Below are positions 1-5,791 of a DNA stretch of 64,000 nt, piece after piece. The position numbers and the translations under genes are program-made. Location: NCBI GenBank assembly GCA_022844405.1, contig JALHLV010000021.1:1-64000 (forward strand), in the 5' to 3' direction. Origin of the DNA: Sphingomonadales bacterium. Lineage in GTDB: Bacteria > Pseudomonadota > Alphaproteobacteria > SMXS01. Within the stretch, counting starts at the first letter, position 1; every line of letters starts with the position of its first letter. The notes beneath the pieces are model-generated. The model was not told the origin of the DNA. It searched no databases and was given only the letters and a program-made list of their open reading frames with translations.

Positions 1-105
1 TTCCCGGATGGGAACGACGGGCCGGATGTATTCTAATACGTTGAATATAAGAACAATATCGTGCTGTAGCGCAATGCCGGATAGCACGGCGAAGAGGCAT
101 GGGGC

Positions 106-153
106 ACCTTGCCAAGGTTAGGGTCGTGAGTTCGAATCTCATCGCCCGCTCCA
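106..153 (+). other. 3' half of tRNA-Gly(GCC), probable att site of an integrated element
   Basis: These 48 bases match positions 29-76 of a tRNA-Gly(GCC): the anticodon loop TTGCCAA, the 3' anticodon strand, a GGGTC variable loop, a T arm with stem GTGAG/CTCAT around TTCGAAT, the acceptor strand CGCCCGC, discriminator T and CCA. The 5' acceptor strand that would pair (GCGGGCG) and a proper D arm are absent from the preceding 105 bases. The match breaks inside the 5' strand of the anticodon stem. Tyrosine-recombinase elements that insert into tRNA genes leave this kind of 3' duplication at one end. The tRNA identity is read directly; the att interpretation is inference. Confidence 0.7.
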
Positions 154-409
154 AAATTCTCGGATCGACACTGTGGCCGCGCCGGGCAGTTTACTGTCCC
201 ATCGTGACGTTGACGGGCTCAGCCGCGGCGCTCCATCGCGATTTGGCGATCGCGCGTCACAGGCGTATAATCAGCGGGTCGATCCGAGTCCGATTTAAAA
301 CATCCGTTGCTCGACGACCGCTGCTCGACCGCCGTCTTTTCGTGACTTGCCGCGGCCGAATAGTGCCGGACATGTGATGGTTGAGCTTTGTTGTTCGAGG
401 AGACTGGCA
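154..409. other. Intergenic stretch with no supported gene
   Basis: This stretch lies between the tRNA-Gly fragment and the TPR protein. Open frames here lack a ribosome-binding site, recognisable domains or the G/C-ending codon bias of neighbouring genes. The last 15 bases carry the Shine-Dalgarno of the next gene. I see no convincing promoter or hairpin. Confidence 0.5.
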
Positions 410-976
410 ATGAACGTCAGACTGCTGTTGACCGTGACCGCGCTTCTTTCAGCCGCCGCCGCACCCGCCTGGGCTGGCGCGATCACCATCCTTGGCGAAT
501 CCAAGGCGGCGCGGTGCTCGGAGGCGGCGTTGTGGGGCCGCGCCGACGAGAAGTCGCTGGCGATCTGCGACACGGCGCTGATGGAGGAACCGCTGGACCA
601 GCTCCGCCGCGCCAGCACCTTCATCAACCGCGGCATCATCCACATGCGCCGGCGCGAATGGGAGCAGGCACACCGCGACTTCGACGAAGCGCTCGAGCGC
701 AAGCCTGAAATGGGCGAGGGCTGGGTCAACCGCGGCGCGCTGATGATCGGCACCAAACGCTTCGCCGAGGGCCTCGCCGACACCAACAAGGGCCTGGAGC
801 TGGGCATCATGGAGCCCGAGAAGGCCTACTTCAACCGGGCGATCGCCTATGAAGGGCTGGGCGACACGACAGCGGCCTATTACGACTACAGCCAGGCGCA
901 GGCCCTGAACCCGGACTGGGACATGCCGAAGAAGGAGCTGACCCGCTTCACGGTGACGCGGCGCGAGACGCGCTGA
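410..976 (+). CDS. Exported TPR-repeat protein
   Basis: A 188-residue protein with an N-terminal signal peptide (hydrophobic core at about residues 5-20, Ala-rich with a likely cut after AWA near residue 22). At least three tetratricopeptide repeats follow between about residues 65 and 170, with the typical small/large residue pattern (INRGIIHMRR, WVNRGALMIG, YFNRAIAYEG). TPRs are protein-binding scaffolds, so it probably acts as a periplasmic adaptor, but no partner is visible. The ATG at 410 is preceded by GAGGAG at good spacing. An in-frame upstream ATG at 347 would put charged residues before the signal peptide and was not used. Confidence 0.82.
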   Translation: MNVRLLLTVTALLSAAAAPAWAGAITILGESKAARCSEAALWGRADEKSLAICDTALMEEPLDQLRRASTFINRGIIHMRRREWEQAHRDFDEALERKPEMGEGWVNRGALMIGTKRFAEGLADTNKGLELGIMEPEKAYFNRAIAYEGLGDTTAAYYDYSQAQALNPDWDMPKKELTRFTVTRRETR

Positions 977-1043
977 ATCGGCTTGGAATCCGGCGACGCG
1001 ATGGGCACTCTGCGCGCCTGAGCACCAGCCGAAAGCCGATCCG

Positions 1044-1304
1044 ATGACCGACACCCTGCCCGACCGCCTGTCCACCAACCCGAAAAGCCCTCATTACGAC
1101 GAGGAGTTGCTGCGGCGCGGCATCGGCATCCGTTTCAAGGGTGTCGAGAAGAACAACGTCGACGAGTACTGCGTCAGCGAGGGCTGGATCAAGGTCAGCG
1201 TCGCCAACTCGCTGGACCGCCAGGGCAATCCGATGACCATCAAGCTGAAGGGCGCCGTGGAAGCCTATTTCCGCGACCCTGAACCGGACGCCGCGCCCGA
1301 CTAA
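1044..1304 (+). CDS. DUF3297 family protein
   Basis: An 86-residue soluble protein matching the DUF3297 family over its whole length. Recognisable family sequence includes DRLSTNPKSPHYDEE, RGIGIRFKGVEKNNV, EYCVSEGWIKV and a C-terminal GNPMTIKLKGAVEAYFR. No function is established for the family. It lies between the TPR gene and a dienelactone hydrolase in the same direction, with a 23-bp gap to the latter, so cotranscription is plausible. No strong Shine-Dalgarno is visible before the ATG. Confidence 0.85.
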   Translation: MTDTLPDRLSTNPKSPHYDEELLRRGIGIRFKGVEKNNVDEYCVSEGWIKVSVANSLDRQGNPMTIKLKGAVEAYFRDPEPDAAPD

Positions 1305-5308: not shown

Positions 5309-5791
5309 ATGCTGATCAGGCCCGCGATTCAGGACGACTCTGACGCCATCTGGGCGATCATCGGCCCCACCATCAGGGCCGGCGACACCTATACGATCGA
5401 CCCTGACATCACCGAGGAAGCGGCCAAGGCCCGCTGGCTCGGCCGCGACCGCGAGACCTTCGTGGCGGTGGAGGACGGGAAGATTGTCGGCACCTACTAT
5501 ATCCGTCCAAACCAGGAAGGCGGCGGCAATCACGTAGCCAATTGCGGCTACATGACCGCCCAGGCGGAAGCCGGACGCGGCGTGGCCCGGCGCATGGGCG
5601 AGCATTCGATGGAACATGCGCGGGGGCGTGGCTTCCACGCCATGGTGTTCAACTTCGTCGTCGGCAGCAACGACCGCGCCGTCCGTCTCTGGCAGTCGCT
5701 GGGCTTCGCGATCGTCGGCCGTGTGCCGGGCGCGTTCCGCCATCCGACGCTGGGCTATGTCGATGCCCTCGTCATGTTCCGCAGCTTATGA
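5309..5791 (+). CDS. GNAT family N-acetyltransferase
   Basis: A 160-residue GNAT (MLIRPAIQDDSDAIWAII start, acetyl-CoA-binding region AEAGRGVARRMGEHSMEHAR, then the VVGSNDRAVRLWQSLGF beta-bulge typical of the fold). The substrate is unknown. The ATG at 5309 has GGGGAG at good spacing; an in-frame GTG at 5291 lacks it. The stop codon overlaps the start of a second GNAT gene (ATGA), so the two are translationally coupled, though they are only distantly similar to each other. Confidence 0.88.
   Translation: MLIRPAIQDDSDAIWAIIGPTIRAGDTYTIDPDITEEAAKARWLGRDRETFVAVEDGKIVGTYYIRPNQEGGGNHVANCGYMTAQAEAGRGVARRMGEHSMEHARGRGFHAMVFNFVVGSNDRAVRLWQSLGFAIVGRVPGAFRHPTLGYVDALVMFRSL

Follow-up and report, generated by a model that had tools for sequence, protein, structure and literature searches.

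The first 153 bases of this Sphingomonadales contig raise the question of why the 3' half of a tRNA-Gly(GCC) gene should stand without its 5' half. The window analyzed here is a stretch of 64,000 nucleotides that begins with the very first base of contig C21 in the draft assembly (G000:C21, 73,805 bases), and the assembly holds no sequence further to the left. A sequence-only reading had proposed that the half tRNA marks the border of a genomic island lying left of position 1. Our analysis makes it very probable that an integrative element, either a prophage or a genomic island, entered the tRNA-Gly(GCC) gene and that window 1-153 is its distal attachment site (attR), the rest of the element being off the contig. 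The features of the locus are as follows.

1-105, no strand assigned: AT-richer unrelated DNA, probable end of the inserted element, ended by the contig start at position 1 (similarity to four congener loci starts at 106; GC 52.4%)
105/106, no strand assigned: junction in the anticodon stem between element-side DNA and the tRNA half (alignments to loci L101-L104 all start at 106)
106-153, plus strand: displaced 3' half of tRNA-Gly(GCC), probable attR core (100% identity over 48 bases, ten loci)
154-186, plus strand: chromosomal DNA directly 3' of the tRNA gene, common to congeners (106-186 aligns at 90-92% to L101 and L104, but only to 167 in L102 and 161 in L103)
410-976, plus strand: probable TPR-repeat protein gene (in congeners 3' of the intact tRNA; TPR models score under their cut-offs)
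1044-1304, plus strand: small conserved protein gene (downstream of the intact tRNA in congeners; no NCBIfam family)
410-1304, plus strand: host-side gene block (same genes 3' of the intact tRNA in congeners)

The tRNA half on the plus strand at 106-153 has the sequence ACCTTGCCAAGG...GCCCGCTCCA and corresponds to the 3'-terminal 48 bases of tRNA-Gly(GCC), starting at A29 (in the position numbering that we assume for this tRNA) and ending with CCA, without the 5' half. It is 100% identical to intact tRNA-Gly(GCC) at ten loci (L056-L064 and L206), and the displaced fragment extends to the 3' end of the gene. Identity to the intact genes begins at A29, which places the crossover in the anticodon arm, on the 5' strand of the stem. 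This is one of the subsites known for islands in tRNA genes, the other being the T-arm/acceptor junction. Both the perfect 48-base half and its break in the anticodon stem, as first described from the letters, were thus confirmed. ARAGORN called zero tRNAs in the window. A mechanical open frame at 99-377 overlaps the tRNA half.

Relatives were then compared for an unoccupied site. With the half and its 3' flank as query, matches were obtained in 55 of 60 genomes, the own genome being included in the 60, and an intact tRNA-Gly(GCC) was found in 6 of 6 genomes of the same genus. In four of these (G001, G003, G004 and G005) the intact tRNA lies upstream of the TPR and small-protein genes of the window and is therefore the uninterrupted gene at this very locus. 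The order in these four genomes, all on the same strand, is tRNA, sulfotransferase-type gene (PF13469 in the G001 and G005 copies; G003 and G004 copies assigned by eye), TPR-protein gene and small conserved gene (window 1044-1304). In the other two, G002 and G006, about 6.5 and 4.3 kb separate the tRNA from the small gene. The alignments of the window to L101-L104 run from base 106 to 186, 167, 161 and 186, respectively, and resume further right; the identity over 106-186 is 90-92% for L101 and L104. Left of base 106 nothing aligns to the four congener loci. Such a common start at 106 is expected of an anticodon stem that was interrupted by an insertion or broken in another way. The comparison with relatives thus came out as the sequence-only reading had anticipated, with a whole tRNA gene and no half in the congeners, in four of the six at the same locus.

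The right side of the locus differs from the congeners in one more respect. Around window 186-239, a segment of about 1 kb with the sulfotransferase-type gene is absent, though G001, G003, G004 and G005 all have it between their tRNA and TPR gene; window positions 186 and 239 correspond to positions 5513 and 6521 of L101. The loss of this segment indicates that the locus has been rearranged.

The DNA left of the junction differs from the rest of the window in composition. Bases 1-105 contain 52.4% GC as compared to 67.3% for the whole window, and equally low GC was found in 2 of 608 non-overlapping windows of 105 bases, so that 1-105 belongs to the lowest 0.6%. The corresponding bases in four congeners have 60-64% GC, measured one base off the exact break. 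The claim that the side lacking the tRNA is AT-richer therefore stands. The two inverted repeats cited in the same context, GTATT/AATAC at 28-39 and CGTGCT/AGCACG at 60-88, are indeed present, but in 1000 shuffles for each setting they did not exceed chance. For 5-base arms, P was 0.275 with a gap of up to 2 and 0.125 with a gap of up to 5, where two repeats were observed; for 6-base arms, P was 0.254 with a gap of up to 17 and 0.275 with a gap of up to 20. We thus rejected the palindromes as integrase arm sites and give them no weight in support of an island border.

No relative that would mark the 105 bases as element DNA was found in the genomes searched. The 105 bases occur at one place only in their own genome. 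Against 385 genomes of the class, with at most two candidates scored per genome, the matches listed comprised the own genome and one weak match in G346 (E = 5e-4 per genome); the latter has no adjoining tRNA half, appears coding-like by eye, and was taken as a chance match. An exact pattern from the 105 bases gave one 19-base match among viral contigs (L247), likewise judged to be chance since no tRNA half stands beside it, and a second exact pattern of 25 bases gave no match among viral contigs. In phage and plasmid records (best 20 of 29 and best 20 of 191 matches) the matches start at query base 105-107, indicating that only the tRNA part was matched among those listed. By eye, window 1-105 contains no reading frame resembling the tail of an integrase. 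A search of window 1-400 against Rfam with E up to 10 found no RNA family, intron families included; the same search also missed the tRNA half.

The own genome was searched for the counterpart of the half. The draft consists of 41 contigs with 3.78 Mb; its completeness is rated at 100% and its contamination at 2.75%. A covariance search for tRNAs pointed to 41 places, and ARAGORN, run on loci covering all 41, found no Gly(GCC); the only glycine tRNA found among them has the anticodon TCC and lies on contig C11. The last 24 bases of the tRNA half occur once in the assembly, in the window. The 5' half of the congener tRNA was not found in the 3.78 Mb with up to 3 mismatches allowed. tRNA-Gly(GCC) should be needed by the cell. 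Because such a tRNA was not found in a draft rated 100% complete, an assembly gap is likely, rather than a true absence of tRNA-Gly(GCC) from this genome. Three tyrosine recombinases were detected in the genome, on contigs C1, C24 and C5: XerD (over the model cut-off), an XerC-like protein (best model, below cut-off) and a 204-amino acid protein. None of them is on C21, and none is on C11, which carries the only glycine tRNA found. In the 204-amino acid protein (L205, G000:C5:163787-164278) the catalytic Phage_integrase domain alone was recognized.

The gap probably reaches beyond the insertion into host DNA. Upstream of the tRNA, congeners have a thioredoxin-TPR gene, then a LON-domain gene (PF02190 in the G005 copy) and, further off, asd (semialdehyde dehydrogenase domains in the G005 copy). 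The thioredoxin-TPR protein, which is presumably CnoX-like, matches the thioredoxin model TIGR01068 (G001 copy). When it was searched against the whole own genome, no full-length relative appeared; there were three partial matches with 30-38% identity, in the thioredoxin part only. The 5' flank DNA of congeners gave only short or weak pieces in the own genome (best 40 of 370 and best 40 of 323 candidates). The LON-domain protein had no match in the four stretches of this genome searched as protein, and its absence rests mainly on the flank DNA search. A match on C24 was rejected as the asd ortholog, as 43% identity is too low for an ortholog within a genus. Since the 5' neighbours of the congeners were not found, the element and its proximal end, together with some host DNA, are probably unassembled.

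Displaced halves of the same tRNA were found elsewhere. We read the best 70 of 88 matches to the half and its 3' flank, the other 18 being the weakest, with less than 45 bases. Six of the 70 have no 5' half: the window, one in G007 contig C26, two more diverged in G007 contig C21, one in G016 and one in G023. Loci L084, L235 and L236 were excluded from this count; their lack of a tRNA call is due to the position of the match at a contig end, and their 5' half is present whole or partly. A 19-base piece in L066 also stands outside the count. Three other alphaproteobacteria and three viral contigs (L200-L202) have halves that are likewise broken in the anticodon arm; five of the six show either an integrase that adjoins or overlaps the half or an intact copy at a distance of 9-10 kb upstream. 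The exact break varies by a few bases among the cases and falls on the 5' side of the anticodon stem or at the edge of the loop, a statement that leaves out the second, strongly diverged half of G007 C21.

G023 (L245) offers the most complete parallel: its intact gene and its half share a strand at a distance of 10,465 bp, and an integrase (Arm-DNA-bind_3, PF13356, and Phage_integrase, PF00589) adjoins the half. The thioredoxin-TPR and LON-domain genes lie upstream of its tRNA, like in congener G005. On C26 of G007 (L098) the distance from the intact gene to the half is 9,348 bp, and here too the thioredoxin-TPR and LON-domain genes lie upstream; no integrase was recognized by eye among the frames of 100 amino acids or more in this interval. 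The same interval holds an open frame of 2,734 amino acids. Besides this clear half, G007 has the two more diverged tRNA-Gly 3' halves on C21 (L099), and the stretch of C21 read has no intact Gly(GCC). In G016 an integrase gene ends 40 bases before the half, and no intact copy was seen on its 3.7-kb contig. Among the viral contigs, the integrase of L202 ends 68 bases before the half, an integrase frame in L200 overlaps the half, and no integrase was recognized by eye in L201 among the 15 frames of 150 amino acids or more around the half. The 10.5-kb insertion of G023 and the 9.3-kb interval of G007 resemble the window in the tRNA, in the arm that is cut and in the upstream genes, which are those of the congeners of the window genome. 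Unlike in the window, both ends are present in G023 and G007, and the integrase also in G023.

We also examined the neighbourhood of thioredoxin-TPR relatives. At least 80 loci with such a relative were found, and 77 of 80 have at least 600 bases upstream. tRNA-Gly(GCC) lies within 1.5 kb in 39 of these 77. Extra 3' halves of 42-46 bases are present in 2 of the 39 (L133 and L148), and pieces of 25-26 bases in one (L171).

This arrangement is known from other elements. As described for Islander-type islands, a tyrosine integrase acts on the gene and on an attP site that contains a copy of the tRNA end; recombination rebuilds the gene at one end and leaves the displaced fragment as a mark of the other (PMC4383910). 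In the same source, 2083 of 3919 islands are anticodon-centred and a 3' fragment is present in 3760 of 3919 (PMC4383910). The window resembles these islands in having a 3' fragment that runs to the gene end, a cut in the anticodon arm and unrelated DNA on the 5' side; it differs in that only 105 bases lie between the half and the contig end, with the intact copy and integrase out of view (PMC4383910). The Paracoccus saliphilus prophage vB_PsaS_PD16, which is listed with a tyrosine integrase, resides in tRNA-Gly(GCC), the same target in the same host class (Alphaproteobacteria), but there a whole prophage is present and here one border only (PMC6536676). In Sinorhizobium, tRNA genes have been described as integration hot spots (PMC11476347).

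All observations fit tRNA-gene integration, and the locus is probably a scar of the ordinary kind. An element would have carried a copy of the tRNA-Gly(GCC) 3' half, and recombination of this copy with the chromosomal gene, by a tyrosine integrase, would have taken place within the anticodon arm. The insertion would restore an intact gene at the distant 5' end of the element and push the original 3' half rightward, and the 105 AT-rich bases would be the end of the element. The contig would then lack the remainder of the element as well as the restored tRNA gene and the former 5' neighbours, all of which would be missing from the assembly. The contig starts at position 1, and no integrase, intact tRNA-Gly(GCC) or element gene was seen with the half. 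The island border proposed from the sequence is thus right in outline and partly supported, by the whole gene in congeners and by parallel cases with the same layout and cut arm, but not by the palindromes.

Three other explanations were weighed. The junction lies just 105 bases from a contig end and the 5' neighbours of the congeners were not found in the assembly, as would be the case if the first 105 bases had been misjoined to the half and the genome had an ordinary intact tRNA-Gly(GCC) here. Such an artefact is unlikely, however, as the break falls in the anticodon arm like that of other displaced halves, and the 105 bases, being at a single place in the genome, offer no repeat in this assembly to explain a misjoin. 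It is still less probable that the element was lost or rearranged long ago, leaving the attR end and the half while a working tRNA gene persists elsewhere. The half without an integrase beside it, the missing 1 kb with the sulfotransferase-type gene and the two diverged halves on G007 C21, where no intact Gly(GCC) was read, would agree with such a remnant; against it, all 48 bases of the half are unaltered, suggesting that the event was recent, and no intact gene was found elsewhere in the assembly.

That same failure to find an intact tRNA-Gly(GCC) in the assembly might also be explained by a gene that is truly split or interrupted, with the 105 bases as an intron. Known bacterial tRNA introns sit in the anticodon loop, but the break here is in the stem before the loop, and the gene is uninterrupted in 6 of 6 congeners. 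The lack of any intron family in window 1-400 at E up to 10 points the same way, albeit weakly, as that search missed the tRNA half too. We therefore consider an intron-bearing or split gene extremely improbable, and equally so a genome without a contiguous tRNA-Gly(GCC) in which the functional tRNA is made from two pieces.

Integration of an element at the tRNA-Gly(GCC) gene thus remains the reading that we prefer. This locus alone does not change the general picture; it adds a further probable case of integration at tRNA-Gly(GCC). A gap is probably hidden behind the 100% completeness given for the draft, in that a tRNA that the cell should need and its thioredoxin-TPR neighbour were not found. 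The tRNA-Gly(GCC) beside the thioredoxin-TPR and LON-domain genes carries insertions also in G007 and in the more distant G023.
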